Shown here piece after piece: positions 6,601 through 62,289 of a DNA stretch of 64,000 nucleotides; position 1 is the stretch's first letter; every line of letters begins with the position of its first letter. The DNA lies in contig OX344754.2 in the NCBI GenBank assembly GCA_947034885.2, positions 16,386,501 to 16,450,500 of the forward strand, read 5' to 3'. The DNA comes from Thuidium tamariscinum (lineage: Eukaryota > Streptophyta > Bryopsida > Hypnales > Thuidiaceae). The position numbers and the translations under genes are program-made. Below the pieces are notes generated by a model. It saw only the letters and a list, made by a program, of their open reading frames with translations, ran no database searches and was not told the DNA's origin.

Positions 6601-8638
6601 CTAATCAAGAAAAGCAAGAGCTGTGCTCCCCCCTCTCCCGCCCTCCTGTCCCAGTCTTTTGGGGGTTAACGGTCATAACACTGTTATAGTTATAGTGTGT
6701 GGTACAAAGTAAGTTCCCTCTATGCCAGCTTCACTTTTTACTGAATTCATGACATGAATTAAAAAAAACCAGAAGCTAAAAATAATTGAAGGCCACCCCG
6801 GGACGAAAGTTCCATCTCCATATTGGTAGGAAGAAATTCCAGCTCCCCACTGGCTGGACTTTCGTGGCCTGCTCCCCATTTTCAAGGAATTCAATACTGA
6901 ACGCTGCAGAAGTCGGTAAACTGAAGATCGAGGGCCACCATGCCATCTGCTCAGCGAGACAGCGACAAAGTCTGCGCCGTGAGCCTTCGTCACTGGTCCT
7001 CGACTCCGTCCTTCTGTGCTTATTATTCTACTACTCTGTACGCATTCCTTTTTTAAAAATTATTTTGTGTGCAATTCCTCCTTCCAGGTTTACCTTTTGG
7101 TGGTATCATCAATTTGTTCACTTGTGCGTTTCTTATTTTCGTTGCGAAACTTCCAGTTTGAAAGCTAAGCTTAGTCGGCGCTGCGGGGAGTGACACGATG
7201 TCCGCAGAACCCACTTGTGAGAGTGGGGTGCACTTAAACGGGATTCACTTAACTTAGGTTTTGAGATTACTGAGGAGGAGGAGGAGGGGATCTGATTGCT
7301 GCAAGAGGGCAACAGTTTGGTGGGGTTGACTTGAAGGGTGAAACGTTAGAAGTAAATAAGCTTACCTTCGGTAGTGAGTGTCTCCGAGAGAGAGTCGGGG
7401 AGGTTCTTTCTTGCAGACTTGCTGACAGCGGAGGTAGAGATGGCGGGCACCGAGTACCGACAATAGTGCGTTGCCGCGCCATTGCATGTTGATAAAGGCT
7501 GTGTGTGGAGTTGACCTGTAGGTAGATTGCCAACGCACTCGCATTAACAGAGTTCTGAAAGTTTTGCAAGGCAGGAATGGGTTTGGGGACCGGGTGGGTT
7601 GAAACCTAAATAAGCCATGGTGGGAAGCACGGAAAGGGCTTGCGTGGGTTTACCTCGGAAGGGATCTGGAGAAAACGTTAACTGGAGCTTGATGAACTCA
7701 CTTGCTGCTGAAAGGCCGAGAGCATTATTAGATTTCTCATGTTCTCTCTTGCATTTGGAGCGGACGGCAGTGGGAGCACTTTCGGCGAGTCCGGTAGATG
7801 CACTTTTCTCTCTTCTTCTGCGTATTCGTCAATTTTTTTGTAAGCTTCTGTGCATAACTTTCTTAATGAGGAACTTCGATCTTCTTGGGTCCATCTCCTG
7901 TATCAAGGAAGAATCAGGATATAGCCAAGATTCGCTGATTCTCTGACATTTTCTCTCTGACACACGTCTGTTACATCTTTGACTCTTTACATCTTGAGTT
8001 CAAGAATTTTGAAGAAAGAAGCTCTCGCACATCAATAACGGCCATAGCTCCCTGAACGTAGCTAGCACAAGTAGCATGTTGTTGTACAGCTTCCTCTGGC
8101 ATATCGAGTGAATTCAAGTAATATCTTCTGTTTTTTCACATGTTGTCAGATGATTAGTATGGTGCGTGCTCTCCTAAAGCAACTTGAGAATGGGTCAGTC
8201 TAAGATTCCTTAATTGATTCGACGGAGTGTGTAAAAAGTATGATATACCTGATCTACAAGCCACTGTGGCACCATAGCTACATACAAGTAGGAATGAGTC
8301 AAGGCTGATCGGCCTCTAGGGCTGAGAAGACTCTCTCTTAAGAATCTCATCGACATTAGCTGCAAGAATGTTTTAAATGTTTGACCGTTTCAATCTTTAT
8401 TTCCCTTACCCTTACTCATCCGGCCTTCTTTCAGTTATGGAGAGATGGCGAGTATCTCGTCAAAATCATGTGAATTGTGTATAGTTTGGGACAGTTTTAG
8501 GGATATGTTTTTAATCTACGCATGGTGGTTTCGTTTGTGCAGCGAGCTTGAGGCTTACCTGCGCATTGAAGTCGACATAACCGAGTATGACTTGTCCGAA
8601 ACATCTTCGAATCTCTTCCGTTGCATCGAAGTTCACCC
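6601..8638 (+). other. Upstream region of the kinase-like gene
   Basis: Base composition shifts to higher GC near 6,600, marking the gene island. The stretch probably holds the promoter and 5' leader of the kinase-like gene. The short ORFs here, such as 6786-7193 (+) and 7267-7569 (-), show no recognisable domain. An ORF opening with ATG at 8445 overlaps the kinase start in another frame. It is either an upstream ORF or a sign of a leader intron that I cannot place. A GAG-rich run lies at 7272-7292. Confidence 0.4.
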
Positions 8639-10432
8639 ATGGATCGTTTCAAAAGAGTCCCACCACGTAGCTTTCAGCGAGTCGAGGAAGCGGAAGAAGC
8701 TTTTGGAGCTCCTGCACCGTGTAGTCCTAGCAGTAGTAAAGCTTCTGGAACACCTGCACCGAGTAGTCCTAGCAGTAGTAAAGGCGACTTTCTGAAGATT
8801 TCTTTACGGAGTGTGCATCGAGTTCACGATCGCCTGCGAAGCCAAAAGCAAATCCTCAACGAATATCAATGTTGGGACCTGTCCACGAAGCTCTTAAGAG
8901 CGGCACTCAACATCGAGCATCTGGTTCATGTCTCGGAGCTTGATAATGAACCCTTCGATTTCGCCTTGAAGAACTTTTTCCGAATCACAGAGAGCGCCAA
9001 GAGACTGGTTGAAAGCTGTCGCAGTGCAAACTGGTGTCAGGCAGCTGCGTTGCAGATCAACAACGAGGAGGCATTCCGTGAAATTTTGGTGGACACAGGG
9101 TTGTGCTATGACGAAATTTATGAGCAAGTCCGAGAACAATCGAGCTTCGAGATTGAGGACCTCCGACAGTCTTCCGCATTCTCACCTGCAACTGCCACTG
9201 AAGTTCGCAAGGACCAGGAGAAGCTCTACAAAAGACTCATGGACCTGGTCTTGGCAGAACCGACCAATTGGAACGAGACGCTTATCCAGCGCCGACGTCT
9301 TGGATTTCACTTGCTAGAGAGGCTGCATGCCATGCTTGAAAACGGGGATAGCAGGGTGAAATCTGACCTAGGAATTGAGCCGGACAATTTTGGTCTTAAT
9401 CCATGGGGTGAGTGCTCTCTTGTCCGCGGTGGGGTCTTCAGGGGCACATGGCTAGGCATGCCTTGCGCAAAGAAGGTCCTCAAGGTGGGAGAATGGAACC
9501 CAATGCAGTTCCAGAAAGAAGCAATCAGATTGCCCATGTTGAACCATCCCAATCTCGTCAAGATCTTTCACTGCGAAAATGACCAGGAAACTCGTGAGTG
9601 CTTCCTTGCCATGGAGCTCATGGAGGGAAACCTTCAAGACGCGATTGAGGAGCAAGAGGAGATTGGGAGAAAAACTCCGTTCTCGCTTCCTGCAGCAGTT
9701 GATATCATGATCCAAATAGCCAACGGCATGTGCTACCTTCATGACCATGAAATTGCACACGGTCATCTCAAGCCTGCTAATGTGCTCATCTTCCGACTCA
9801 ACTCTCCACATCTTCAAGACTATCTGCATGTGAAGTTGGCCGATTTTGGCCTTCTGCAGGCAGAGGTCAGAGCATCCGGATCCATGAAACCTGCTATTAG
9901 AACGACACTATATGGAGCACCAGAGGCCTTCTCTCAAGATGGAAGAAGATTCAAGATCGCCATGAAGAGCGACGTGTACAGCTTTGCTGTGGTTGCCTCC
10001 CACATTCTCAGTGGCAAGAAACCGTTTGAGGGAATCCCTCCCTCCCGTTTGGACGAGGCGATTCTCAGTGATGCGAGACCCAAGTTGCCTACCAACTGTC
10101 CAGAAGAGCTTGCGTCCATCATTCGAGACTGCTGGGTAAAGGATTATCGGAAGAGACCTCTCTTTGTGGAGATTTGCTGCAGACTTCAAAGTGTGAGAGT
10201 CAGGTTGTCCAGAGGTGACTATCTTCACGGATTCCATGCTCTGCAGCGCGACCAGGATCCTTCCGTCCCGACGTACGCGTTCGGGATGTACAGTGAAAGA
10301 TCCAATTTTCGGCAACGAAATGCTGAGGCTCGCGACGATAAGGTGAGATGTTCTGACCTGCGTCATAGCGTTAAGTCTGGTGCTCAATTGGACTCTGCAT
10401 TTAATGACCAAATTGAGAAGCGCAAGAGTTGA
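8639..10432 (+). CDS. Kinase-like protein with N-terminal helical domain; likely pseudokinase
   Basis: Single long exon, 597 residues from the ATG at 8639, whose context (CACCCATGG) is good. Residues about 15-42 are a Pro/Ser linker containing a short internal duplication (PAPCSPSSSK, PAPSSPSSSK). Residues about 50-225 form a helical region resembling the N-terminal domain (DUF1221 type) of plant MLKL-like kinases. The kinase domain follows, about residues 245-520: glycine loop around RGGVFRGTW, ATP-site lysine in PCAKKVLK, ADFGL magnesium loop, GAPEAF activation-segment end, and a final DCW..D..KRP motif. The catalytic loop reads HGHLKPAN where the family has HRDLKPxN or HGDLNPSN, so the catalytic aspartate is histidine. 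This predicts little or no phosphotransfer and a signalling role through fold changes; that role is inference. The frame is open upstream to 8591, so a missing 5' exon cannot be excluded. A polyadenylation signal follows at 10503. Confidence 0.85.
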   Translation: MDRFKRVPPRSFQRVEEAEEAFGAPAPCSPSSSKASGTPAPSSPSSSKGDFLKISLRSVHRVHDRLRSQKQILNEYQCWDLSTKLLRAALNIEHLVHVSELDNEPFDFALKNFFRITESAKRLVESCRSANWCQAAALQINNEEAFREILVDTGLCYDEIYEQVREQSSFEIEDLRQSSAFSPATATEVRKDQEKLYKRLMDLVLAEPTNWNETLIQRRRLGFHLLERLHAMLENGDSRVKSDLGIEPDNFGLNPWGECSLVRGGVFRGTWLGMPCAKKVLKVGEWNPMQFQKEAIRLPMLNHPNLVKIFHCENDQETRECFLAMELMEGNLQDAIEEQEEIGRKTPFSLPAAVDIMIQIANGMCYLHDHEIAHGHLKPANVLIFRLNSPHLQDYLHVKLADFGLLQAEVRASGSMKPAIRTTLYGAPEAFSQDGRRFKIAMKSDVYSFAVVASHILSGKKPFEGIPPSRLDEAILSDARPKLPTNCPEELASIIRDCWVKDYRKRPLFVEICCRLQSVRVRLSRGDYLHGFHALQRDQDPSVPTYAFGMYSERSNFRQRNAEARDDKVRCSDLRHSVKSGAQLDSAFNDQIEKRKS

Positions 10433-10631: not shown

Positions 10632-11923
10632 ATGCCATCAAGAAGTGCGGACGCTGCTGGGAGCAGTAGTGCTGGTTCGAGCTATAGAAACTCGTCCGAA
10701 AAAATTGAGGAGGTGAGTTGAAGCATTTCGTTTCCATTGAAACCACCATTAACCAGTGCTAGGAACGTTATGCTGTGCTGCAATGATTAGGAAATCATAG
10801 AAGAGCAGGTCACTAGATAAGTGATACTAGCCTTGAAGACCTGACGAAAAGTTCTGGCATTGCTTCACTGAGCAGGTTGATGACTCTGCGTTTATAAATG
10901 AGATCATTGCAAAACTGAGCAACAGGAAAGTAGAGGTTCACCGGGATGCTGCGAACACCATCAGATGTCTCGCAAAAATGGACAGTGAGAAACGAGTTCG
11001 CATTGCGGAACAAGGAGGCATACCTTTCCTGATCAACCTTCTACGATCACCTGACAAGATGACTCAGGAGCACGCCATCACCGCTTTGATGAATTTGTCC
11101 CTACAGGATAGTAACAGAGCCCAGATTATGAGGGCAGGTACACACGTGCTACTTCGCTATTTTGCTTTCTATTGTATGAGTCTACCCTGAGATTGAATTC
11201 CATTTTCTATCAATCCTATTTTCTGCTGTAATGCAAATGAATGTAGCCCTGAAGTTGATTCAGAAACGTAAATCCAAAAAGTCAAGTGACTAAAGAACTG
11301 ACAATTCCCTTCTTGTATTCATAGGGGCAATAGACAGCATCGTCCACGTCGTCAAGTGGGGGCAGACCACAGGGGCCCGAGAAAACGCTGCTGCAACAAT
11401 TCAGTGTCTCTCATACGAAAGTGAGAACAAGATCTCTATTGGCAGCACAGGGGCCATTCCTGCACTGGTCGAGTTGCTGCACACTGGAACAAGTCAAGGG
11501 AGGAAAGATGCAGCTAATGCTCTCTGCAACCTCGTCAGCTCTCAGGAAAGCAACAAGATGCGAGCAGTTCAAACTGGCCTCATCACTGTCCTGATGGACA
11601 TTCTGCATGACCACTCTACAAACGAGTTAGACGATATTTCTCTCTCTATTTTAGCAAATCTGTCGCTTTTCCCAGGTGCCCTCGTTGACATTGCCAACGC
11701 AGAACCCGCAACCTTGTTGATTGATTTCATCACTTGTGGATCTCGCAAAAAACAGGAGCTTGCAACCGCGCTCTTGTGCAAGCTCTGTGTAGAGGATCCT
11801 ACCTTAATTGAGGCAGCGTATCATTCTGGAGCCCCTAGCCCCTTGGAAGCTCTGCTGAGGGATGACAGAACCACAGCTCGCTGTAAACGGAAGGCCAAAC
11901 AACTTCTAGACCTTTTGAGATAG
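10632..11923 (+). CDS. Armadillo-repeat protein, PUB-like ARM domain without U-box
   Basis: Three exons join in phase: 10632-10712 (donor GAGGAG|GTGAGT), 10876-11137 (after GAGCAG; donor GGCAG|GTACAC) and 11325-11923 (after ATTCATAG). The product is 313 residues. A 27-residue Ser-rich start is followed by ARM repeats throughout, for example DAANTIRCLAKMDSEKRVRI, EHAITALMNLSLQDSNRAQI, ENAAATIQCLSYESENKISI and DAANALCNLVSSQESNKMRA, with typical GAIPALVELL segments between. It is closest in style to the ARM half of plant U-box ubiquitin ligases (PUB/SPL11), but no U-box precedes it. A scaffold or substrate-binding role is therefore likely, in cytosol or nucleus. It starts only 200 bases after the stop of the kinase-like gene on the same strand. 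The first exon is inferred from frame and splice consensus; the other two are firm. Confidence 0.82.
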
Positions 11924-24463: not shown

Positions 24464-24679
24464 CACTAGTAGAAACCCTCGTTTATTGTAACAAGGCCTA
24501 ATTTTTCTTGACAAATTTTGTTAAGCATCAAAAGTAACAACTCATATTTTTATGTCAGCATTGATGTTGTGTTGAACATTTTTGTTGACATAAAAACACG
24601 GGTTGTAACTTTTGATGCCTAGCAAAATCCGTCAAGAAAAATTAGGCCTTGTTACATTAAACAAGGGTTTCTACTAGTG
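24464..24679. mobile_element. CACTA-type foldback element, 216 bp
   Basis: It begins CACTAGTAGAAACCC and ends with the exact complement. The flanking triplet CTA is repeated on both sides (24461-24463, 24680-24682), the 3 bp target size of CACTA (EnSpm) transposons. Nearly all of the element is one stem of about 100 bp per arm (shared blocks AACAAGGCCTAATTTTTCTT and GCATCAAAAGT) with a small loop. It has no coding capacity. Confidence 0.85.
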
Positions 24680-25761: not shown

Positions 25762-25963
25762 TGTTGAGATAAGATAATGATCCTAGTTAACTTAGGTTAA
25801 GTGAGACTTAGGATAAGATAAGAGTAGATCTCACTACTAGTGACACTACTAGTGATACTTCCTATATAAATGTATGATCATGTAACACTTATGATTATTA
25901 CTTTGAGAACTTCTTATTTGCATTATATATTTTATGTGTCTATGCTCTGCTTCCTTCGCAACA
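25762..25963 (+). repeat. 5' LTR of the copia element
   Basis: 202 bp, TGTTG to CAACA. It has a CTATATAAATG box near 25863 that could serve as the TATA element of the retrotransposon promoter. Confidence 0.93.
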
Positions 25964-26045
25964 CGTTATCAACACGATTTGTCTCTCGTTTTGCTATTCT
26001 CTTTTTCTCTTTTCTTTTTTGCTATTGTCTTTAGCTACGATAGCT

Positions 26046-29000
26046 ATGGCGGATAAGAAGTCAGCGCGGGAGAGTAGCTCCCGGGTACAACCACTTTTGT
26101 TTGATGCTCTTGAAGTCGATGGTAGCAATTACATGGAGTGGAGTATAGATGTGAAAGCGTACTTTTATTCGGAGGAGTTGGACGATGCGATCGATGATGA
26201 ACCAGAGGCGGATTTTCCAATGTCATCCAAGTGGAAAGCTTTGCTTGTTCTTCGCCGCCACCTTCACACCTCTCTTCGACAGCAATACATCCAAGTTGAC
26301 AACCCGGCGGAGCTACGGCGTCAACTTCATGCTCGGTTTTATCATGAACGCACTATCTTTCTTCCCCAAGCTCGAAATGATTGGATTGCTCTTCGTGTTC
26401 TTGATTTCCCTGATTTCCTTTCCTTCAATGCTGAATTGCATCGTATTACTGCTCAACTTCGTCTTTGTGGAGATAAGATTACAGATAGGGAGCTCATAGA
26501 TAAAACCCTATCCACTTTTCCTCCGGCTTCTGCCCTCTTAGCTCAACAGTATAGGAATATGAAGTTTACGACACATTCCGAACTAATGTCTTATCTCTTG
26601 CTTGCTGAAAAACAGCAACAGCTTCTACTTAAAAACGTAGAAGCAAAACCCGCTCGAGAGGCTCATACTTCTGAGATCTCGAGGCAACAACCACAAGGAA
26701 CAAGGAAACAACAACAACGGTTGCCAAATCAGCAACACCCTAGAGATAAGTCAAACTCTTATAGACCCTCCTCTAATAGAGTCTCTCGATACTCAGATCG
26801 TTTTTCTAATCGTGATTATCGCTCTTCTCAATTGAACGATAGATCTTCTGATAGAACCCTCGATAGGAAGTCATCTTTTTCATGTGACGATCGTACTTGT
26901 CACAAGTGTGGCCGTAAAGGGCATATTGCTCGATACTGCCGCACTCCTGAGTACTACGTTAGTATGTACAAAGAGTTAGAGAAGTTTAGAAATGAAAAGA
27001 GAGAGGCTCATTCACTCGACGCTCCTTCCTCTTCCAATGTAAATATCGAAAATTACATGGTGCATATCTCCAAAGAGTTAGCTCCTACAAATATAGCTCT
27101 TATCGATAGTGCCACGACACATACAATTCTTAGAGATCCGAAATATTTCACGTTTGCTAGTCGTGATAGAACTTGGCAGACTTGTGATATCATCACAATT
27201 GCTGGAAGTCGGAACTTTCGGTTCCGAGAGGGCCAGGCAACTATAGTATTGCCTGGAGGGACCCCCCTCGTGTGTGAAAAAGCAATGTATGCCCCTGATG
27301 CCCCCCGGAGCCTGATCAGCTACCGTGATTTACGGGCTAATAGGATGGATGTCTCCACTGCATTGGATGACCATAAAGAAGTATTGGAACTCAGGCAAGG
27401 TCAGCAACTCCTTGCCACCGCTAACGCAGGAGTTACTGGCCTATACGAGTTATTGATAAGCCCTCCTAAGGAGTCAGCTTTTCACTTCTCTACTTCGGTA
27501 GGAGATGATGAAGAGTACCGGGAACTCAGGCAAGGCCGACAGTCCCTTGCCACTGCGAAAGCAGGAGTCGATGGACTAGTATGTGAGAGCAACTCTGCTT
27601 TGATACCCCCCTCTACAGCTAAGACTGGATTGTGGCATAGTCGGTTGGGCCATCCAGACACCACTATGTTGAGGAGGATGTTACCTTTGTTGGAAGGACA
27701 CAATTTGTGCACCAGTGATGCTGACAAGGTTGGGAGCTGCGCGGCATGTTCACAAGGAAAGCTTATTAAGCGCCCTTCACATTGGAAGCTATCAACGGAA
27801 CTCCCTCCTATGTTACAACGTCTACAAGGTGATGTATGCGGACCAATTACTCTATCTTCTGGACCATTTCGATATTTTCTTGTGCTTGTTGATGCTTCAT
27901 GCAAACACTCGGAGGTATCCCTGCTTAGCACCTGAAACATGGTGTTTTCAAAGCTTCTAGCTATGATTATTAAGTTTCGGACTCATCATCCGGACTATCC
28001 TGTGAAGAGTTTGAGGATGACAATGCCCAAGAATTTCGCTCTCATGCCTTTGAGGATTATTGTATTGCTAATGGGATTTCACTTACATACTCTGTCCCAT
28101 ATGAACATTCACAAAATGGATTGGCGGAGGCATATATCAAGAAGATTCAACTCATCACTCGGCCTTTATTGATCCATGCCAAGTTGCCTCCTACAATGTG
28201 GGGACATGCAGTTCTACATGCAGCTACATTACTCAGGTTTCGTCCTACCTTGCTCAATACTCAGTCTTCTTTCGAGTTAATATCTGGACGCGTCCCCAAT
28301 GCTTTCCATTTTTGTGTATTTGGCTGTAGAGTATGGATTCCAGTTTCTGAACCTCATAGGAAAACGATAGGTAGTCACCGTCAGGAAGGGATCTATGTTG
28401 GTTTTGATTCCCCTAGCATCATTCGATATGTTTCACCTTCATCAGGCACTCTCCTACGTGCTAGATTTTCCAATTGTCATTTTGAAAAGTATAGTTTCCC
28501 TTCTCTACCCAATGTCAAGTCCCCTGCTTTAGATTTTTGGGCACCTGAAACCATCATTTAAAACCCTGACCCCCGCACAGCCTTAGCTGAGTCTGAGGTC
28601 AAGAAACTTATTCATTTACAATCCCTTGCAGACAAACTACCAGATGGCTTTAGTGATGGTCCCCGAATTACTCGAAATCCTCTCCCTGGCACAGGACTTA
28701 TCCCCATTAGTGTCATTCCTTCTAAGCATACGATTGATCCTACTGCTTCTATATCTAAGAAACCTCGCCCTCATCATGTCACCTTACATAGTGATGCACT
28801 TTTCTCACTTGATGATAATTCACAATTTTCTTCTTTCCCTGAAGATGGTTCATCCGTGACCGCCTTCATTACTCGGATACTTAGTGATTATCCTGATCCA
28901 CTCACGTTAGATGAAGCAAAATCTAGCCCTGACTGGCCAAAGTGGCAAGTTGCACTTGCTGCCGAATATTCTTCCCTTAGAAAACATGAAGTCTTTGGTC

Positions 29001-30511
29001 CTTTGTTGACCAACCTTCCTACTAAACCCATAGGATACAAGTTGATTTTTACTCGGAAACGTAATACCCAAGGACAAATAGTCCGATTCAAAGTCCGATT
29101 AGTGGCTCAAGGATTCAATCAACGTCCTGGCATTGATTTTACCTTTACTTATTCTCCTGTTATGGACGCCACTACCTTTAGATATCTACTTGGCCTAGCT
29201 GTACAACATTCTTTGGAAACCACGCTTCTAGATGTTGTGACAGCTTACCTTTATGGAAATTTAGATGCCACAATTTATATAAGGCCTCCTCCTGATTTCT
29301 TGCCTACGCCCCCTTTGACTGATTCTTCGAGCAAGTATTCTGGCCTCAAGCTACAACGAGCTCTTTATGGATTAAAACAAGCAGGTCGCATGTGGTATAA
29401 ACATTTGAGAGATTTCTTGCTATACCACAAGTTCCGGCACGACCCTACCCTTCCGTGTATATTCACTTTGAAGGATGCTCATGGATTTGTGATAATTGCC
29501 ATTTATGTTGATGATCTCAACCTTATAGGTACGCCCTCCACTTGCCGCCAAACGGTAACATTACTAACAACTCATTTTGAAATGAAACTACTTGGCCGCA
29601 CTTCTTTTTGTCTTGGTTTAGAGATTACACATTTGCCCAATGGAAGTATATTTCTTCACCAAACTGCGTATACTCAACGGTTGCTCAAGAATTTCAAGAT
29701 GGACCAAGCAAATCCTTTATTTGCTCCCATGATCGGTCGAAGCAAGACAAATGATGACCCATACCAACCTTGTGAGGAGGAGGAGGAGGAGGTATATGAT
29801 AGCAAACGGTACCTCACAGCAGTCAGAGCTTTGTTATATTTATCTACACATACTCGACCAGATATATCATTTGCAACAAGTGTGTTAGCTCGGCATAGTC
29901 AGAGGCCCACGATGCGACATTGGAATGGAGTCAAACATTTGTTTAGGTATCTTCACGGAACAGAAGACTTAGGACTTCATTATACAAAGACTGGACCATC
30001 AAATTTAGTTGGATATGCAGATGCTGGTTTCAAGTCAGATGAAAACACGGGCAAGTCCCAGACAGGTTATATCTTCCTACGTAACAACGCACCCATATCA
30101 TGGAAGTCTGTGAAGCAAATAGTGACTACAACATCAACCAACCATGCGGAGTTAATCGCATTCCATGAAGCGACAAGAGAAGTAGTTTGGTTGCGGACAA
30201 TTGACAAGATCATTTCAGATCAATGTGAACTCAGCCACAATACACAACCAACAACGATTTTTGAAGATAATGCAGCATGTGTGGCGCAAGTTACAGGTGG
30301 ATTCATCAAGGCTGATCGAACGAAGCACATTAGTCCACAAATCTTTGGATTTACCCAAGACTTTATTGAATCAGGAGAAATTGAAGTGAAGAAAGTTCAA
30401 TCCTCCAACAATATTGCTGACATACTTACAAAGGCACTCCCTGCTTACACTCACAGACGATTGGTTCAAGAAGCTGGCATGAGATCTCTTCAAGATCTAG
30501 TTACACATTAG
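26046..30511 (+). pseudogene. Internal coding region of the copia element (fossil)
   Basis: Approximate parts: gag (UBN2-like) 26.05-26.85 kb; CCHC zinc knuckle CHKCGRKGHIARYC near 26.9 kb; aspartic protease around LIDSATTHTIL near 27.1 kb; integrase zinc-binding head LWHSRLGHPD near 27.6 kb and integrase core to about 28.5 kb; reverse transcriptase with YVDDL near 29.5 kb; RNase H to about 30.45 kb. The region is interrupted by about three or four breaks and is not expected to make a full polyprotein. Confidence 0.9.
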
Positions 30512-30602
30512 GTTACGCTCTTTTTCTTTCTGTGAATTTTCCTTATAAAGGTTTTTGTCACAGTTAAGTTTTTTAATGAGGTAACCCATGATCGAAGAAG
30601 AG

Positions 30603-30804
30603 TGTTGAGATAAGATAACGATCCTAGTTAACTTAGGTTAAGTGAGACTTAGGATAAGATAAGAGTAGATCTCACTACTAGTGACACTACTAGTGATACT
30701 TCCTATATAAATGTATGATCATGTAACACTTATGATTATTACTTTGAGAACTTCTTATTTGCATTATATATTTTATGTGTCTATGCTCTGCTTCCTTTGC
30801 AACA
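30603..30804 (+). repeat. 3' LTR of the copia element
   Basis: 202 bp, the same length as the 5' LTR, with two single-base differences and no gaps. It is followed by the target duplicate GAAAA. Confidence 0.93.
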
Positions 30805-31237
30805 GAAAACATGAAATTGAAGAAGGCATTTTGGTCCTTTAGGCCAACAATGCATGAATGGATAATTTTTTTTTTCTTATTCCCATACATGTTTTTGTAA
30901 AGCTTCAAAGCCTTTTCAATTAGGTCACCTTCACTTGTTTTGGACTCATCAAAGTATCTTATGTTTGAGACACATGAATTGAATTTCATTGTTTTAGCCT
31001 TAATCATACTGAGTTTTGTCTCTAGTGAATTCACGGGTCTTTTAGTTGCATCTAATTATCCATTTATGAATTAAAAATGAAATTAATTATAATTTTGAAG
31101 TTATTGCTATAATACATATTAGTGTGCCATGTGCCATTGCCACATCCAAAATCAAAATAATAGTAATTTTCTAATTTTTTAAAATAAAAAATAATTCAGA
31201 AATCCATAACTTTACCAATGTAAGTTGGAATACCACA

Positions 31238-31966
31238 GGGTCATTGCAAGAAACACCGTCCAAAAAGCATAGCGTTTTCACAATACCCTTTTTTTCCTTC
31301 ACTAGGGCTTTAAAATTAGAAAAACAATTTTCAAAAATAATAAAAAAATATGTTTCATGTATATATCTTTAAGAAGAAGGTACCCTCAAAAGGAAAATTA
31401 TAGGAAAAATCTGTAAATAGGAGAATTAGAAAAGTGCAAAATCTCATGAAAATTGGTACTTTTACATTTTAATTTGTAAAAAATAGGAAAATAAATTTTC
31501 TTAAAAACTAAAAATTGTCCATTCTTAAAGAGTTGATTTTGATGAGATTTCACCAAAAGAACAATCTTAGAACCATCTTCAATGTTTAGAAATTGTGCGC
31601 AACGGAAAAAAATTTGCACTCATGTGGAGGACATGAAATAACATATTTTTGGATTTCATTCAAAAGTTATAAGTTTTACACCTATATGTATAGACCATGA
31701 AATTTTTGTTTATAAATCATTAAATTTGGGCACTCATAACGTAGTGATTTTTGGAAACTAAAAACTGTGACGCTCAACAAAAAACTTTTTGAATATAAAT
31801 TGTTATTTTAATTTCTGAAAAATAAGGGATATAATAACCTTCAAGTTAGGTATGTCCAATAAAGATTTCATGTTCATTGAACTTAATCTCCAAAAGTTAT
31901 AGTAGACAACAAAAAAGTGGTTTTCATTGTGACATGAAATAGGACTAGTGTTTCTTGCAATGACCC
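31238..31966 (+). mobile_element. 730 bp TIR family, copy G2
   Basis: It starts GGGTCATTGCAAGAAACACC and ends with the complement of GGGTCATTGCAAGAAACACT; length 729 bp. It is colinear with the 733 bp copy at 51550 (shared blocks AAGAAGGTACCCT and AGGAGAA.TAGAAAAGTGCAAA). The flanks CACA and TACA match in three of four bases, possibly a worn 4 bp target duplication. It has no long ORF. Confidence 0.78.
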
Positions 31967-32602
31967 TACACAACAAAGCCCTTGCACCCCTCCACACCAA
32001 GAGCTTTCCAATAGTACTAAATATGCAACTAAAGGATGCACAGTCTTGGAGATCCCAATGTGACAAACAAACATACAAAACAAACAAACAATTATAAGGT
32101 ATAGATAAAACTCACAAAACAAATTATTTGAAACTTACCTTGTCCAATTGTATCCATACAGTACTTTAGTATTCTCTCCTACAATTTATTTGCCTTCTAT
32201 TTAATCCCCACAATAGGATCTTGGCTAATATGCATCTAATTCTTGCATAATTGAAGTTTGTTGCTACTATTGTAGTTTTCAAATTGTTTGGATGTACCCT
32301 CATCTCCCATATTCACAATTTGAGTAGGTAAGACATTTACGTCACAAAAATAAAAAAATAATTAGAATCACATGACTATGAGTACAATTGAAAAATGTTG
32401 TGCATAGCACATACAAAATCAATGTAGTTCTAAAGCTTTTTGCAATGTGGTAGAATACAAAGCATATCATTGAATTCTACAATTTAGATGCACACTTCAA
32501 AAACTAGTGTGAAATTCATACAACAATTATACAAACTAAAGGACTAAAGAAAAAGCTTCTTCCATTTGTGTACATCAAGCCAATTTTTTCAATGTTTTTT
32601 TT
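31967..32602. other. AT-rich non-coding stretch
   Basis: No gene or element is recognised between copy G2 and the 92 bp tandem array. Confidence 0.45.
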
Positions 32603-33690
32603 TAAACTTGAGCTTTTAGTTGACACCCAAGGTTTTACTTTCACTTTTAATTTGAAAAGATAGATAAGACATAAGTGAATAGTACTTTGAAATGGAAGTA
32701 TTACTTTAAGCTTTAAGTTTTAACTGAAACCAAGAGTTTCACTATAAAAAGAGCAATAAGATATAAATAAGTAGTACTTCAAAAGGGAAGTATTACTTTA
32801 CACTTGAACTTTAAATTGAAACCAAACGTTTTACTTTAAAAAGAGCAATAAGATATAAATGAGTAGTAGGGCAATTGCATGAAAGACTTGTACTATTTTC
32901 CATCACACGTCTCATGCTGATTTGTTTTTTGACCATAACTTTTGCATTTTTGCTCCAAATGACTCAAGATTTCTAGAGAAGGTACTCATAACTATCATAC
33001 AGCTCACATGATTTTTTGATAATTTTCAAAAATATTTTAATATAAAAATAGTACTAGTGATTGAATGTCACATATGACAATTTGGAGGTTTTTAGTACTA
33101 TGGAATACCTTTTTTTAATTATTTTGAGATGAAATTTAGAGGAGATGGTCTTCTAATATACTTATAGCTTTCCACAAAAGGATTTTCAAAAATAGTTAAT
33201 TTTATGTCCTGTGGAGGTCTACGAAGAGAGCTTCATTCTGCTTGTATTTTGAAACATATAAAATATTATTTTGGTAGATTCTTTGGTGAATGACCATCTG
33301 CATAAAGTTGTTGCAAATTTCCACTTTTTATTTTTTGTATTTAATTATTTTTACTATTTTTCCCTAATTAAAACATGAAGGTATGTATTTTCTTGAGATT
33401 TGGCACTTTTCCAGTTCTCCTACTTAGAAAATTTTCCTATACAATTCCTTTTGTAGGTACCTTTGTCTTAAAGGTGTATACATAAGTCATATTTTTTTTT
33501 AAATTATAAAATTATTTTTCTAATTAAATAGTACTCCCGAAAAAGTCAGGAGTACTATTGCAAAACGCAACAAATAGTACAGGTCTTTCGTGCAATCACC
33601 CAGTACTTCAAAATGGAAGTATTACTTTAAGCTTAATATTTTAATTTAAATTAAAAGATTTACTTTTATTTTAGCTTTTCAAATAACTGA
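32603..33690 (+). repeat. 92 bp tandem array, split by a transposon
   Basis: Units start AGTACTTYRAAAKGGAAGTA at 32681, 32773 and 32865, exactly 92 bases apart, after a partial unit from about 32603. The third unit is interrupted after its first four bases by the 733 bp element at 32869 and resumes at 33602. Later sequence drifts from the consensus. The array is non-coding. Confidence 0.8.
32869..33601 (-). mobile_element. 730 bp TIR family, copy G3, with visible empty site
   Basis: The ends are GGGCAATTGCATGAAAGACT and, in reverse, GGGTGATTGCACGAAAGACC; length 733 bp, opposite in orientation to copies G2 and G4. AGTA flanks both sides (32865-32868, 33602-33605). Because it sits in a tandem array, the neighbouring unit shows the uninterrupted site, TAAGTAGTACTTC, which proves a 4 bp duplication. 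It encodes no protein. Confidence 0.88.
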
Positions 33691-33761: not shown

Positions 33762-34640
33762 TTATATCCCATTCTACTTGTAGAACACCAAAACATTAGT
33801 CCACATCATTGCAAGTAGCTTCTTGCATCTTTGCATAATATTGTTGTTTTTCTCCTTAGGGATGGTGAATGGTTTGGTCGAAGATACTCCATTTAGGATA
33901 GATTTCATCTATTAAGAGATAGTAATTTGCATTTGCCCCTCAAAAAATTGGTTACTAGTGGATTTCAATGCACAACATTAATGTCATTATGTAATCTGGA
34001 TAATCCAAAATAGGCATACCAAAGCCATAGACTTTGATTAGCAATTGCTTTTAAGATTATAGATTTTAAACCATCTTTGTCTTGATATGAACCACGCCAT
34101 GCTATAGGATAGTTCTTCCACTCATAGTGCATGCAATCCAATGATGCAAATATACTAGGCCAACCTCATGCCTCATTAATGTGTAGTTGCTTGTGAATAT
34201 TTTTTTTGGTTGGTTGTCTCAAGTATGTGCTCTCAAAAACGTCTTGGATTGCTTTTACAAATTGTTTCAAGGCCTCCATGCATGTACTTGATGCCATGCA
34301 AACATATTCATCAATGGCATTTAGTGAGATACCATAAGCCAACATCTTCATTGTTGTTGTACATTTTTGGAGACTACTTAAGTTCAATTTACCAATTGCA
34401 TCTGCTTTTTCTACTAAATACCTATCATGATTTTGCACACTTTCTACCGATTTAAAAACAAGTGCCTTGACATATGAACAAAACATCCTTGCATCATAAA
34501 TTGGGTCATCTTCAAAATAGTCCTTCATTAGACAATCTTGTGCTTTCGTTCTTCTTACAATGTTTGGTCTTTTTTCATGAGTGGAACCACCACATTGAGG
34601 CAACAAATGTATGGTGCACCAAAGTCATGTACTTGTTTAT
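33762..34640 (-). mobile_element. PIF/Harbinger transposase gene fragment, left palindrome arm
   Basis: This 879 bp arm is the mirror of 34713-35591 with no gaps. Reading outward on the minus strand it encodes a decayed PIF/Harbinger (HARBI1/ALP1-like) transposase without its true N-terminus: RRTKAQDCLMKDYFEDDPIY, LNLSSLQKCTTTMKMLAYGI, INAIDEY-type helices, then the DDE region (SLDCIHYEWKNYP and HNDIN). The 146-codon open part is identical in the two arms, and both carry the same in-frame stops after it. Confidence 0.85.
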
Positions 34641-34712
34641 GAAGATCATGAATTTGAAAATGTATAGCAATGACGAAGATTTTGAATTAAAGTATTTGTT
34701 TAGATGCCACTA

Positions 34713-35591
34713 ATGAACAAGTATATGACTTTGGTGCACCATACATTTGTTGCCTCAATGTGGTGGTTCCACTCATGAAAAAAGACCAAACATTGTAAGA
34801 AGAACGAAAGCACAAGATTGTCTAATGAAGGACTATTTTGAAGATGACCCAATTTATGATGCAAGGATGTTTTGTTCATATGTCAAGGCACTTGTTTTTA
34901 AATCGGTAGAAAGTGTGCAAAATCATGATAGGTATTTAGTAGAAAAAGCAGATGCAATTGGTAAATTGAACTTAAGTAGTCTCCAAAAATGTACAACAAC
35001 AATGAAGATGTTGGCTTATGGTATCTCACTAAATGCCATTGATGAATATGTTTGCATGGCATCAAGTACATGCATGGAGGCCTTGAAACAATTTGTAAAA
35101 GCAATCCAAGACGTTTTTGAGAGCACATACTTGAGACAACCAACCAAAAAAAATATTCACAAGCAACTACACATTAATGAGGCATGAGGTTGGCCTAGTA
35201 TATTTGCATCATTGGATTGCATACACTATGAGTGGAAGAACTATCCTATAGCATGGCGTGGTTCATATCAAGACAAAGATGGTTTAAAATCTATAATCTT
35301 AAAAGCAATTGCTAATCAAAGTCTATGGCTTTGGTATGCCTATTTTGGATTATCCAGATTACATAATGACATTAATGTTGTGCATTGAAATCCACTAGTA
35401 ACCAATTTTTTGAGGGGCAAATGCAAATTACTATCTCTTAATAGATGAAATCTATCCTAAATGGAGTATCTTCGACCAAACCATTCACCATCCCTAAGGA
35501 GAAAAACAACAATACTATGCAAATATGCAAGAAGCTACTTGCAAAGATGTGGACTAATGTTTTGGTATTCTACAAGTGAAATGGGATATAA
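34713..35591 (+). mobile_element. PIF/Harbinger transposase gene fragment, right palindrome arm
   Basis: The plus-strand arm. After the open part ending HINEA at 35187 there is a TGA where the family has Arg (INEARG). The same frame then gives GWPSIFASLDCIHYEWKNYP, PIAWRGSYQDKDG, and SRLHNDINVVH before a second TGA. A frame change precedes DEIYPKWSIFDQT, and two TAA codons follow, in place of the family Gln of PQGEK and the Arg of VERxFG. The first two catalytic aspartates are visible (DC, ND); the final acidic position reads KDVD. No intact enzyme can be made. It stops a little short of the usual C-terminus. Confidence 0.85.
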
Positions 35592-36720: not shown

Positions 36721-37085
36721 ATATTTTCTTTCACCAAATGCATCGTTACATACTTTTGAGTCCAATGAAAGTAACCAAATTGTAAAGTATTATTACCAAT
36801 ATATACCTTAAGTCCTAAGATCTTCCTTTTAATGCCCACAAATGTTCTATGAGGTCATTTCTATGTGTGTAGTGTTTATTTGTATCATGAATCACTTCAA
36901 ATTCATGTAAAAAATCTTCAAATATTAATCCACTTTTTAAACGTGACAAAATCTATAGTTGAATTAATAAGCTCCAAATCGTGATTTTGTTCATCTTCAA
37001 TTATCATATTATGCATCATGACACATGCCATTAAAATCTCATTTACAATATCCACATCCCATTCTCAATTTAGATTTTGAATTAT

Positions 37086-37670
37086 GGGTGATTGCAAAAA
37101 ACACTTGTCCTTTTTTTCTGTCCCTTTGACCTCCAATAGGTAGTTTATTGCTCATAACTTTTGCATCTTTTGTCCTTAGGGCTCGAAATTTGGAAAAAAG
37201 GTGCACACAAAAGTTTTGTATGGTGAGTATTTTTTAATTTTTCTTAAAAATTAGTTAACTATTTTTAACCTACCTCCAATTGCATATCTACCTTAGCCAT
37301 TTTAGGGGGTTTTAGTCCTATTTTAAATCCAAAAATCCAAATTTGAAGCCACAAATTGGACAAGTTGGAGGTCTACTAACATTACAAGGATTGACAATGC
37401 ATTTTTATGAAAATAGCAACATGTTTGTTGCGCACATGGGGTCAAAGTGACCTTCCTTTGCACAAAGGCTATGAAGAGGGAAAAAATTTCCTAGAAGAAA
37501 TTTTTATTGCAATGTGAGGACAATCTTGTTTAGAAAATTGAATTTTTTTTAAATAATTTTTTGAATATTTTTTGAATTCCTAAAAATGAAAAGGTCCACA
37601 ATCCCCTTTTTTGCTATTTTCTACTACCAATGGCCTTTGTAGTACTTTATAGCAATCTATATTGACTACA
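37086..37670 (-). mobile_element. 730 bp TIR family, worn copy G5
   Basis: It starts GGGTGATTGCAAAAAACACT, and the block CATAACTTTTGCATCTTTTG matches the interior of copy G3. The far end cannot be placed with confidence. Confidence 0.5.
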
Positions 37671-51549: not shown

Positions 51550-52282
51550 GGGTCATTGCAAGAAAGACCGACCGATTTATGTAGCGTTTTCCACAATACT
51601 GCTGAAATTTTCGGGAGTATTGTATAATTTAAAAAACAATTTTTAAAAAATATAAAAAATATGTTTTAGGTATATACCTCTAAGAAGAAGGTACCCTAGG
51701 AAGGAAAAGTGTAGGAAAATTCTCTAAGTAGGAGAACTAGAAAAGTGCAAATTTTCATGAAAATAGGTACTTTGACATTTTAATTTGTAAAAAATAGGAA
51801 AAATAATTTTAAAAAAAATTGAAAATTGGAAATTGGGGATAACTTTATGATGAAGAGATTTCACCAAAAGAATGATCTCAAAACCATCTTAAATGTTCAA
51901 AAGTATGTGCGCAAGGGAGGCCTGTTTGCACATATGTAGAGGAAAGAGAATAATGATTTTTAAGATTTCCTTTGGTAGAAACATGCCTACCTAGTATGGA
52001 AATAGGCCACAGAAATTTCAGCTTTAGATCATTAATTTTGGATGCTCCCCAGTACTAAAAATCCCTAAACCGCAAAGTGTGACAAATTAGCTTAATTGAA
52101 ATTTAATTATAAAATTATTTTTGAATTTTTTTGAAAAATAAGTAATTTGATTGTTGTCATGTCAAAAATCTTTAGTCAAAATTTCAAGTTAATATGGTTC
52201 ATACTTTAAAAGTTATAATCAATAACAACTCCGTCATTCAAAGTGTGACACAAAATAGTACCGGTCTTTCTTGCAATCACCC
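51550..52282 (+). mobile_element. 730 bp TIR family, copy G4
   Basis: It starts GGGTCATTGCAAGAAAGACC and ends with the complement of GGGTGATTGCAAGAAAGACC; length 733 bp, equal to copy G3. The flanks (TTCA, TGAA) extend the inverted repeat rather than forming a direct duplication. There is no coding region. It is the best preserved copy for a family consensus. Confidence 0.82.
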
Positions 52283-55200
52283 TGAAGTCTAGCACAGAAT
52301 TCTTTGAGCTTCGTAATTTAATGCCAACAAAACTGCAATCACACTTTTACAATAACCTCTTATTGTAGACTAAAAAAAGGCTCACACTCTTTAACATTTG
52401 AAACTGAAATCGTAGTCGTGCAACAGAATTCAATTGCTAGTTGAACATACTACATCTACAGACATGAAAGCAGGCTTTTCATAAACATTTCGAACATTTT
52501 TTTAGACTATAGACAAATTGAGGCCAAAATTGCAAATGACAATGTCAAATTAGAAGAATTGTGTAGGACCCAGCCTAATGTTGTGTCTCATACAGAAGCA
52601 GTTCAAATGTATCAATTCTTTTAGGTTGCAAGCATGCATCTAGGTTTTGTGTAGTGAATCAAGGTGGCAACTCATGCAAGCAAGAATTTTTAGTTTATTT
52701 GATTTCTCACAGCCAAAGGCATCGCCAAAAGCCGGTCATGACTCTAGATCAAGTTCTTTTAAGATGCTCTAATGCAGGATAGTACAACTAGTTATGCAAG
52801 CAAACAAGTCTCACCTCTAGTGTACCATACAAGTTTTCTACTTGGAAACACATTGTTTCTTTTGATGGTAGTCTACCTCAACTCCCCAAAACCAATTGTG
52901 TAAATCCTATGGAGTCAATCTTGTGCATTTTGTTGCATTCCAAAATATTATTAGTTTGCTTGCTTAGTTTTGTTGAGTATTCACAGCATTCATGTTTCTT
53001 AGAAACAATAGAAGACGTCCTCTACGTAATATGTTCATGTACAACTAAGGATATGTATGATTGTGAAGGTGATTGACATTGTCAATTTCGGATGCACCTC
53101 ATATCACTACCATCAGAAAACATGATTGATTCACATGGTGACAAGTGAAGTAGTACTGATCAAAACTTTGTTTAAGTACGAGTGAGTTTGTCAAATTAAT
53201 CATGCAATCTTGTGTGACATTCTTTTAAAGAATGTCATGCTCATTTCATTAATTCTTCCTTGATTTGTTTCTTTCATCAATGAAGGTAGCATATTTCAAT
53301 GTCTTCCATGCTTTTATTTTTTCACTTGGAAAGAATTCTTATCAAAATATACTGGAACGTCAATTGAAAAGTCTGATGTGTTGTTGTTACAAGCCTTCTA
53401 CAACAACAGTTGAAAAGTCTAATGTGTTGTTGTTGTTGTTGTCACAAGCCTTGTACACTTGAAGTGCCAATTAGTCTAAGTAAGTGTAGAAACTTGAATT
53501 GTACAGGGTTGCAGAAGGTGCATATTGTGGAAAAGCTTGTCAACTCTAGTGTATACACCAAGTACCTGGTGATTGGGACATAAAAGGCTACAACTTTGTA
53601 GGTAAGCATTGTTGAAGGTGTTCGTACATGTGTAGTTCATATTGCAGTTTTTGCTCTATTGTTGCATTTGAAGATGGAATTGGTTGTTGCAGTACCCCGC
53701 AAGAAGCTCTTGTCCAATTAATGTAGTTTCAAGTGATGTGGCTTGAGCTCAGAACTCACAATTATGATTAAATGGAAGTTAGGTTTCGTAACACATATGA
53801 AGTCTCACCTTACTTGTGAATATGATTTCCACCGCTGTGAGTAGAGGCTACGACTAATTAGAAGTAGAATTGTGACTTTCATGGATTCATGTGACCTAAA
53901 ATATATTGAATGTCAAAAAGGTAAGCTTGAAAGACCCTCAAAAATTTCATGCTTGATATATGAGGACAAGTTTGATCCTGACCATCACATTGTGAGAAGT
54001 ATGATTATACATCAACATACATGGCTACATTGAATAAGTGACGAACATTTAATTAGCAAGTTGGTCAATAAACAAGTGAGAAGAAGCAATAGAAAATTCT
54101 CAAAGGACACATTAAAAGAGTTCCGTGCTTTTGGAAATTCCATGCTCCATGCCAAGTTGTTGTTTGTGACACTTGAAATTTTTAGTTTGTTTTTCTTCAT
54201 ATGGGGTAGATTGATGCTTCTACAAAGCACTTGTCTTGTACTAGAGTTTCAATTCTTGAAAGTCACATACTAGCCGTAGTTGATGAGTGCATTGTACTTC
54301 ATCCATCATCCTTGAGTGTCTTCAGAATTAGCACCAAAAGCAGGAGAAGCCATAGCTTCCTCACGACTTATTGCACACGTGGAGGCGTGATTTGTGTGAC
54401 ACTACTTAGTTTGTACTTGTTTAGTTTTGTAGGTTAATGGAGGTATGAAAATCTCAATTTTGTGTACTTGGCATTAGTCGACTACTAGAATTTTAGTAAT
54501 GCACGAAGTTGGGATGAACATGAAAATATGAAATCACCAATTTTTTGTTCACCAGAAATACTGTTGGATGGGAATTCTTGTTGAAAATGACGGATTCCTT
54601 TGTGCTATATTTCAAGAAATTGCTTTCTTTAGCTTGAAAGTGTAGGAGTGATGTAGATTTTTTAATACAAGATGTACTCATGAAGGTGTAAAGTTCGTGA
54701 AATAATCAGCATGTTGATGAGAGTTTGACTTATACTAGGTGACCTGACGTGGACACTGCCTTAGACTTGTACATTAGAGATTGATGTGAAAATCTATGGA
54801 AAGCCTTTGTTCAATTTTGTTTTTTTGAGAGCTCAAGTACTTGAGGGTAAAATATCATGATTTCAACAAGTAGAGCACTTACAGAATTTGAGTTTGCGGA
54901 CTTAATGCTGTAGGGTCATATGAAGTTCAAAATCAATTGCAACAATTTTCAATGGGAGGAACTACCAAGTGAAAATTAAAGGTATTTTACTTTAAGCCTT
55001 GGTTAAATAATTGTTGTACGCACATTGAACATAAAGTTCTATCCCGTACATTTGGAGCTACAAATTATCCTTTTGGGGGGTACAAAGCTCGTTTTGTAAG
55101 AGTAACGGGAAAGATGCAACAAATTCAATATTTGTTAATAGTTGAGAATTCCATAGGCAAGTTAGTTTTCTTAAGGAGTGAATGGTTATTCTATTAGAAC

Positions 55201-56861
55201 TTTATTTATTGGTTGTGATTTGTACAATATAGAACACTCATACAATATGCTAGAGCTATAAAATTTGCCTACAATTCAATGATGATGTAAGAGTGTATTG
55301 TAGTACAAAGGTTTATTGCAAAGTTCACAAAGAATTCAGATGTTGCTCGGATGATTATGTTCTCTATCATAGAACAAGAGAATACAAGAGTACAAATTCA
55401 CTTTGTTGGGACCTTGCATGAGGTCTTGAAGCAACATCGTGTACTCTAAACTTTTGTCCCAATCTACGTAGTCTCTAAAGTCTTAGACACAAAATCAAAT
55501 CTAAATTGAGCATTATCAAAAGAACATGTGCATGAGGACTACGATTGTGCAAGAATGACCATGTCAAATGTTTTGAAAACCAAGTAGTGCTAACTTTCTT
55601 TTGGAATGTAGCATCCCCATGCAACTAAAGTATCTGACAGAAACTATGCTCACACTGATGAACATTTAATTTATAGGAGTGCCTTTTTTCAATTTTTAAG
55701 GGTGATATACAATGTTATAGATACAATGTTTTCAACACTTGGATAGCACTAAAGAGTGTATACCTTCTCCAAACTTCTTTCAATCAAGTAAGGCAGTTGG
55801 GTTTGATACAAAAAAAAGGAGCAGAAGAGGTGGAAGTGATTTTTGAAGATGTGAAACAAGTAATTATATTTTTCAAGTAATTTTCATTCCAAAATTACTG
55901 CATTTACATCTAATCCAAGTGGTTTCATGTTTTGGAGAATTTAATAGAATTTTTTTTAAAGTTCTGAAGTCAAAAGGTCATAGACTCCAAAATGAAAAAC
56001 CTCAGAACTGTATAGAAATTGTACATTCTTCAAGGCTGCAACAAAAAAACGAGTATACTTAGTGTACAGTTAATGAGCTATGCTATTTTAGAGGTGCTTC
56101 ATATTGGAGCCGACTACCTAATTGAGAATGAGTGGTTCCACATATCATTTTCATAGCATAGTTGAAGCTTTTGTTATATGGTGACCTCAATAATTTCATA
56201 ATGGTATTCAAGAGTTCTAAAATTGAATATGAAATTTTTGGGGTACAAATGTCTCTTTACACAAGCCACTTCTTAGTGAACAAATATGAAGGAGAGAAGC
56301 ATTATTTTCTTAAATTTGAGCAATTGCTAGTTAGTTTTTTCAACTACAGTATAGTCTTCAAAAGGAAAGCCTTACTCATTCAAGCAAGGTATGCCTCTGA
56401 AGATTCATCATTACCTAAACTTTTCCTTAGTAGCATGTAATTTTGCTTTGGCAAGTTTTGGAGCTACAAGTTTACATTTCAAGATGTGGTGCTCAAGCTT
56501 CTACTGCAGTCCCCTTGCTCAATACCTTTATTTTGCACAAACTTCATTCTGTTTTTTCCTTCATAGAATGTATGAATCACTTTTAGTCAATTTGGTGTGT
56601 ACCCATTATAAATAAGCTTTGAGGGGATGGAGAGGGTAATGTACATTTGGATTCAAATAGTGATACATGAAGTATAAAAATTGTGTTGTATATGTGATGT
56701 TGAATGTGCTGGTTTTTATTCAAGAAGGACTTGAACATTATGTAATTGGTTGTCAAAAAATGTATTGAAGATATTTGTCCTTCATTGTACACAGGTGAAA
56801 GCACTCTCGAATCTAGAGAGTTTGCTTCTATAAAAAAGTGGAATCAAATGTCACCAGGTAT
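52283..56861. other. AT-rich stretch without recognised genes
   Basis: About 4.6 kb with short ORFs only. One small tandem duplication is visible: the unit TTGAAAAGTCTGATGTGTTG and the following ACAAGCCTT block occur twice between about 53358 and 53460. Nothing else bounded was found. Confidence 0.4.
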
Positions 56862-56864
56862 ATA

Positions 56865-56963
56865 CACTAGAAGAAAAGCCTGAAAATTTGCGTTTGTTTC
56901 AACATAACGCATCAAGTGAGTTATGTTGAAACAAACGTAGATTTTCAGGCTTCTCTTCTAGTG
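56865..56963. mobile_element. CACTA-type foldback element, 99 bp
   Basis: It begins CACTAGAAGA and ends with the exact complement, flanked by ATA on both sides (56862-56864, 56964-56966). Each arm is about 44 bp with only a few mismatches (block GTTTGTTTCAACATAAC is shared), and the loop is about 11 bases. The size and near-perfect pairing resemble a plant microRNA precursor, but no expression evidence exists here. Confidence 0.85.
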
Positions 56964-57212
56964 ATAAGATCTTTTATTTTACATCCTTATTAATTCTTCT
57001 TAATTGCTTAAAGTAGGATGGATTCAAACGCAAAGAACACTTAAAAATTAAGAATTCTTGCTTCTTGATTTGTGTTCATGAATCATGTAAGAGTGCCATG
57101 GAAGTAAAATTTCTGAATTCTATTTAGCTGAAGGTTTTCATAATGGCTTCTAGTAAAATTAGACAATGTATCATACTCCTGGAAATCATTATGTATATAG
57201 TATTTGTGGAAC

Positions 57213-62071: not shown

Positions 62072-62289
62072 CACTAGAAGAATCCCTTTTTTATCTAGAC
62101 ATGGGTTGTCTAACTTGATACTATTTACCTAGACGTTCAATGTAGCAACCTCATGTTTTTTTGTCATTGAAGATGTTACAGTGGACGTCAATATTGACAA
62201 AAAAACATGAAGTTGCTACATTGAACGTCTAGGTAAACAACGTCAAGTTAGACAACCCATGTCTAGATAAACAAGGGATTCTACTAGTG
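62072..62289. mobile_element. CACTA-type foldback element, 218 bp
   Basis: It begins CACTAGAAGAATCCC and ends with the complement of CACTAGTAGAATCCC, flanked by AGA on both sides (62069-62071, 62290-62292). The arms are about 100 bp each and share ATCTAGACATGGGTTGTCTA and CTAGACGTTCAATGTAGCAA. The stem sequence is unrelated to the foldbacks at 24464 and 56865. ORFs at 61833 and 61864 enter it and are incidental. Confidence 0.85.

Follow-up and report, generated by a model that had tools for sequence, protein, structure and literature searches.

Two copies of a dead transposase fragment lie head to head in a 64,000-nucleotide stretch of Thuidium tamariscinum DNA (hereafter the window, meaning the whole stretch that was analysed), and a sequence-only reading had proposed them as a candidate natural silencing hairpin. 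This raises the question of whether the palindrome serves as a source of small RNAs against its own transposon family or is an inert relic, and of how such a structure was formed.

Geometry of the palindrome

The palindrome is present in the given sequence, and the coordinates, the 879 bp arms, the 72 bp spacer and the gap-free alignment previously claimed for it all proved exact. It consists of the following parts:

33762 to 34640, minus strand: left arm, transposase fragment read on the minus strand, 870 of 879 bases complementary to the right arm
34641 to 34712, plus strand: spacer of 72 bp, which would form the hairpin loop
34713 to 35591, plus strand: right arm, transposase fragment read on the plus strand, with a match to Plant_tran (PF04827)

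Aligned arm to arm, the sequences are complementary at 870 of 879 bases without a single insertion or deletion, on either side of the 72 bp that separate them. The nine mismatches (33774, 33775, 33786, 33808, 33829, 33838, 34130, 34629 and 34638, in left-arm numbering) are unevenly spread: six fall in the outer 77 bp, two in the inner 12 bp and one in the 790 bp core (33839-34628). The sequence-only reading had described arms that match best in the centre and worst in the outer 80 bp, which the six outer mismatches bear out; to this can be added that the inner edge is also poorer than the middle. With a limit of 77 bp that was set after the data had been seen, at least six of nine random positions fell within some 77 bp in 0.155% of 20,000 simulations, while at least eight of nine lay no more than 77 bp from an arm end, as eight do here, in none of 20,000.

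Long palindromes are classic artefacts, and an assembly or library error could have duplicated one arm in reverse. However, a simple read chimera should be identical throughout and continue to the end of the read, and with nine clustered mismatches, distinct flanks and a distinct spacer, such an origin appears very unlikely.

As a single strand, the palindrome is predicted to fold into 892 pairs with an energy of -1572.6 kcal/mol (the G+C content of the window is 36%). If it were transcribed through, the duplex would reach nearly 880 bp, in agreement with the length that had been claimed.

The transposase fragment and its lesions

That the arms hold a dead PIF/Harbinger transposase, as had been read from the letters, is supported by matches to the Plant_tran domain. 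With X at the stops, the right-arm fragment matches profile positions 2-170 of 205 with an E-value of 2.3e-43 and 148.6 bits (cut-off 22), and an uninterrupted 66-residue piece of the same arm reaches 72.5 bits (E 4.9e-20). The N-terminal 152 residues, searched alone, matched no transposase model, their sole Pfam line being TIR_3 below the cut-off (E 0.066). Along the right arm, the coding frame of the matched protein is interrupted by two stops; downstream of 35386, a frameshift moves the Plant_tran match into another frame, which holds two further stops:

35185 to 35187, plus strand: in-frame stop TGA, left-arm counterpart 34166-34168
35386 to 35388, plus strand: in-frame stop TGA, followed by the frameshift, left-arm counterpart 33965-33967
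35495 to 35497, plus strand: stop TAA in the second coding frame, left-arm counterpart 33856-33858
35555 to 35557, plus strand: stop TAA in the second coding frame, left-arm counterpart 33796-33798

All four stops, with the frameshift between them, are common to both arms. The earlier description of four shared in-frame stops needs correction, as these lesions are split over two frames by the frameshift. One right-arm frame contains six stops (34714, 34726, 35185, 35386, 35446 and 35458), and the four that had been assigned to a single frame appear to include 35446 and 35458, which are out of frame.

Relatives of the fragment were sought in several collections. A search of viral contigs returned two pattern matches and a search of genome contigs 31, none of which was confirmed; these sets are viral and prokaryotic, respectively, and plant copies are not expected in them. 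Among solved structures, the best match was an unrelated Dps protein (E 1.1). Elsewhere in the window, blastn found no second copy of an arm at E 0.01, and tblastn with pieces of the arms gave E 0.088 or worse. No Rfam family matched at its gathering score anywhere in the window.

Boundaries of the arms

When the sequence outside the arms was added, the Plant_tran score rose from 132.9 bits for each core to 134.4 (right) and 135.8 (left), while the right-arm core followed by each of ten random continuations scored 132.4-136.5 bits, a range covering both real flanks. A transposase running on past one arm was rejected on these grounds. In addition, no Pfam match was found in about 780 bp of either flank, read in three frames; of the roughly 667 residues translated in each frame, about 261 were used for this search. 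Since neither flank exceeds random continuations and no Pfam match was found in these 780 bp, the transposase gene is truncated at an identical point in the two arms.

The fragment is most readily read as an internal piece of a PIF/Harbinger transposase rather than a complete element. A complete PIF/Harbinger transposon carries a second, Myb-like open reading frame. The locus shares the Plant_tran transposase domain with these transposons; in contrast, terminal inverted repeats and a TTA/TAA duplication were not found at the arm ends, which lie inside the coding match, and the repeat in the flanks is within chance. A TAA/TTA target duplication has been stated for Tourist MITEs (PMC10004981).

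The flank repeat consists of AGGTAA and AGGTGA, which adjoin the two arms (p 0.036 without a shift). As a target-site duplication of the whole palindrome, it was rejected, an equally good pair being found in 31% of 5000 random pairs when a 3-base shift is allowed. The same repeat, together with the matching end points of the arms, could point to a foldback-type mobile element whose arms are long terminal inverted repeats. Nevertheless, given the frequency of such pairs by chance, the arm ends inside coding sequence and the single copy in the window, this origin is highly improbable.

A 31 bp inverted pair on either side of the palindrome (33572-33602 and 37085-37115) was also considered as terminal repeats and discarded, the motif recurring in a dispersed, diverged repeat family of the window. 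Pieces of this A+T-rich family (31148-33679, 37079-37595 and 51550-52322), about 58-82% identical and lying in either orientation, account for much of the palindrome's surroundings. Three other repeats of the window (24464-24679, 62072-62289 and 56861-56966) are self-complementary: each is 84-87% identical to its reverse complement, has CACTAG...CTAGTG ends and is bordered by 3 bp repeats (CTA, AGA or ATA). These MITE-like repeats resemble CACTA-type MITEs. Farther away, a long open reading frame (8591-10432) matches PK_Tyr_Ser-Thr, a protein kinase domain, at E 3.1e-37, and another (11294-11923) carries armadillo repeats.

The spacer and the order of the arms

Most of the spacer together with the first 10 bp of the right arm (34657-34722) aligns on the same strand with 34986-35051, at 71% identity over 66 bp. 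The alignment score of 28 was reached by none of 2000 spacer shuffles, none of 2000 double shuffles (best 27.5) and none of 2919 other segments of the window (best 25). The homology thereby crosses into the right arm for 10 bp, of which eight are identical (0.16% for random local pairs). Most of the spacer is thus diverged sequence from the same transposase, in the orientation of the right arm. Since this older transposase sequence precedes the right arm and not the left when each arm is read in its own direction, the spacer and the right arm are probably the older part and the left arm the copy, a polarity drawn from one match of 66 bp at 71%.

Proposed formation by fold-back copying

In the best explanation, to which we assign a probability of about 0.6, a PIF/Harbinger-type fragment that was by then truncated and decayed was duplicated in inverted orientation through accidental fold-back copying, later underwent conversion in its core and is now inert. 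The proposed starting state would comprise the spacer and the right arm only, with the transposase fragment already truncated and decayed. During repair or replication, a strand would have doubled back on itself where the inner 8-12 bp of the arms form a short, imperfect inverted repeat, and outward copying from the folded strand would have produced the left arm. The inner edge offers a candidate for this repeat:

34716 to 34723, plus strand: perfect inner pairing of 8 bp, candidate fold-back seed, paired with 34630-34637 and bordered by the mismatches 34715/34638 and 34724/34629

Both the small gap and the imperfection of the inner edge are in keeping with copying by fold-back or template switching. 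In yeast, inversion junctions have been described at interrupted inverted repeats of 2-14 bp, with a spacing of 40-80 bp favoured (PMC10766183), and hairpin-primed foldback copying from a single strand has also been described (PMC7467729). The 8 bp seeds are 78 bp apart, compared with 72 bp for the arms; when the repeats are counted into the spacing, as in the legend of PMC10766183, the distance becomes 8+78+8 = 94 bp, outside the 40-80 bp range. The palindrome resembles yeast foldback inversions and ODIRA junctions in its inverted duplication and short spacer and, if the 8 bp pairing is counted as such, in a short inner repeat. However, the yeast events are described as large and chromosomal (PMC7467729; PMC10766183), whereas the present palindrome has arms of less than 1 kb and resides in a plant genome, to which the yeast mechanism is here transferred by analogy.

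Two further features argue against this scheme. The outer end of the copy coincides with the point at which the gene breaks off, which needs either a fragment end or a second switch. Moreover, fold-back copying alone leaves the outer cluster of mismatches unexplained, for which we infer a later conversion.

Probable conversion and decay of the arms

With eight of nine mismatches near the arm ends, conversion of an older palindrome could give the observed pattern. The stop at 35555 is common to both arms, and the outer 77 bp of both arms therefore derive from one dead ancestor. A chimeric copy is therefore the less favoured reading, compared with a core that was converted at a later time, and gene conversion would have homogenised the 790 bp core more than the ends. 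If the core was converted, the shared stops cannot order the death of the gene and its duplication. The sequence-only reading had offered two options, a gene dead before it was duplicated or arms homogenised by conversion; both are compatible with the shared lesions, but the two are not separable here.

A comparison for the divergence of the arms is provided by a Copia-type element upstream (25762-30804), the 202 bp LTRs of which differ at two of 202 bases, similar to the overall nine of 879 between the arms. This element has TG...CA ends, GAAAA on both sides and an RVT_2 domain, and its gag-pol is spread over three open reading frames and probably broken.

The base composition of the arms bears on their methylation history. 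TG/CA is in excess (observed/expected 1.55 and 1.53 in the arms, compared with 1.19 in the window), and 1.9-2.4% of 879-bp segments are as high or higher, counting segments that overlap the arms. For CpG, the ratio is 0.19 in each arm, against 0.51 for the window. This low CpG was not accepted as proof that the arms are specially methylated, since 12.7% of 879-bp segments have a ratio as low or lower. The TG/CA excess suggests methylation decay, probably old, and does not imply present methylation. The locus is probably methylated and silent, and the hairpin of any transcript crossing it would be diced without serving a dedicated role.

A related possibility is that of a self-limited small-RNA locus, in which siRNAs from the hairpin or from RNA-directed DNA methylation would keep the locus itself methylated while leaving other copies unaffected, and which might represent raw material for a microRNA gene. 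Both the TG/CA excess in the two arms and the inverted-duplication models for the origin of MIR genes (PMC10004981) are consistent with such a locus. However, the decay is common to both arms and may therefore predate the palindrome, and a self-limited locus of this kind seems unlikely.

The silencing hypothesis

As initially proposed, the palindrome would be a natural hairpin-RNA locus, with a read-through duplex of about 880 bp diced to 21-24 nt siRNAs that silence Harbinger relatives in trans. The support for silencing consists of the long, near-perfect arms and their predicted pairing. A source of read-through could conceivably be the young-looking 3' LTR of the Copia element, which lies on the same strand with its end at 30804, about 3 kb upstream. 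Precedents exist: the soybean aquaporin inverted repeat (621 bp, with a spacer of about 1,000 nt) is reported to give rise to many siRNAs, 40 of which match a gene without mismatch (PMC3534067), and in maize, the Tpd1 hairpin has been described together with DCL2 22-nt siRNAs (PMC11390486). These loci and Arabidopsis IR71 resemble the palindrome as long inverted repeats of gene-like sequence. They differ in having mapped small RNAs (PMC3534067; PMC11390486; PMC2600652), while the present locus is described from DNA letters.

Against such a role, inverted repeats are common: P. patens has 132,656 of them, which make up 6.2% of its genome and show a median identity of 79% between arms (PMC2600652), and those of imperfect pairing number about 134,000 in Arabidopsis and 410,000 in rice (PMC10004981). 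No relative that could serve as a target was found in the viral and prokaryotic contigs or as a second copy in the window. In addition, the arms carry stops, a frameshift and a TG/CA excess, and fewer perfect matches of 21-24 nt to active copies would therefore probably be available.

Mu killer of maize, the precedent that had been invoked, is a weaker and more complicated one than was claimed. It is an inverted duplication of transposase sequence that silences, but the read-through hairpin model for its action has been disputed (PMC3440606). According to this study, Mu killer plants that silence MuDR contain antisense transcripts of 0.65 and 0.74 kb, unable to form a large hairpin, and the read-through transcripts are sense and associated with failure of silencing. 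The central part of Mu killer had proved refractory to sequencing, and the authors of the study leave room for a contribution of minor, longer transcripts (PMC3440606). Both loci are partial inverted duplications of a transposase gene from which, on paper, a long hairpin RNA is possible. However, Mu killer has copies of TIR A, is described as co-linear with mudrA and has been shown to silence (PMC3440606), whereas the palindrome described here contains a decayed gene, with four stops, a frameshift and a decay-like composition, terminal inverted repeats were not found, and silencing is hypothetical. Taken together, silencing of Harbinger relatives in trans appears distinctly unlikely.

Conversion and silencing could also be combined. 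The contrast between the core (one mismatch in 790 bp) and the ends (six in 77 bp) might then reflect a hairpin maintained by conversion, in which a duplex of dead transposase acts as a host small-RNA memory of an old Harbinger family; we give this very little probability. In the literature, no silencing locus made of a Harbinger inverted duplication was recognizable by title or abstract among the matches listed.

Significance

If small RNAs are made from this locus, it would be a further natural inverted duplication of a transposon that possibly silences its own family. Even if the locus is a relic, the homology in its spacer is a rare hint as to which of the arms is the copy and how palindromes of this sort begin.
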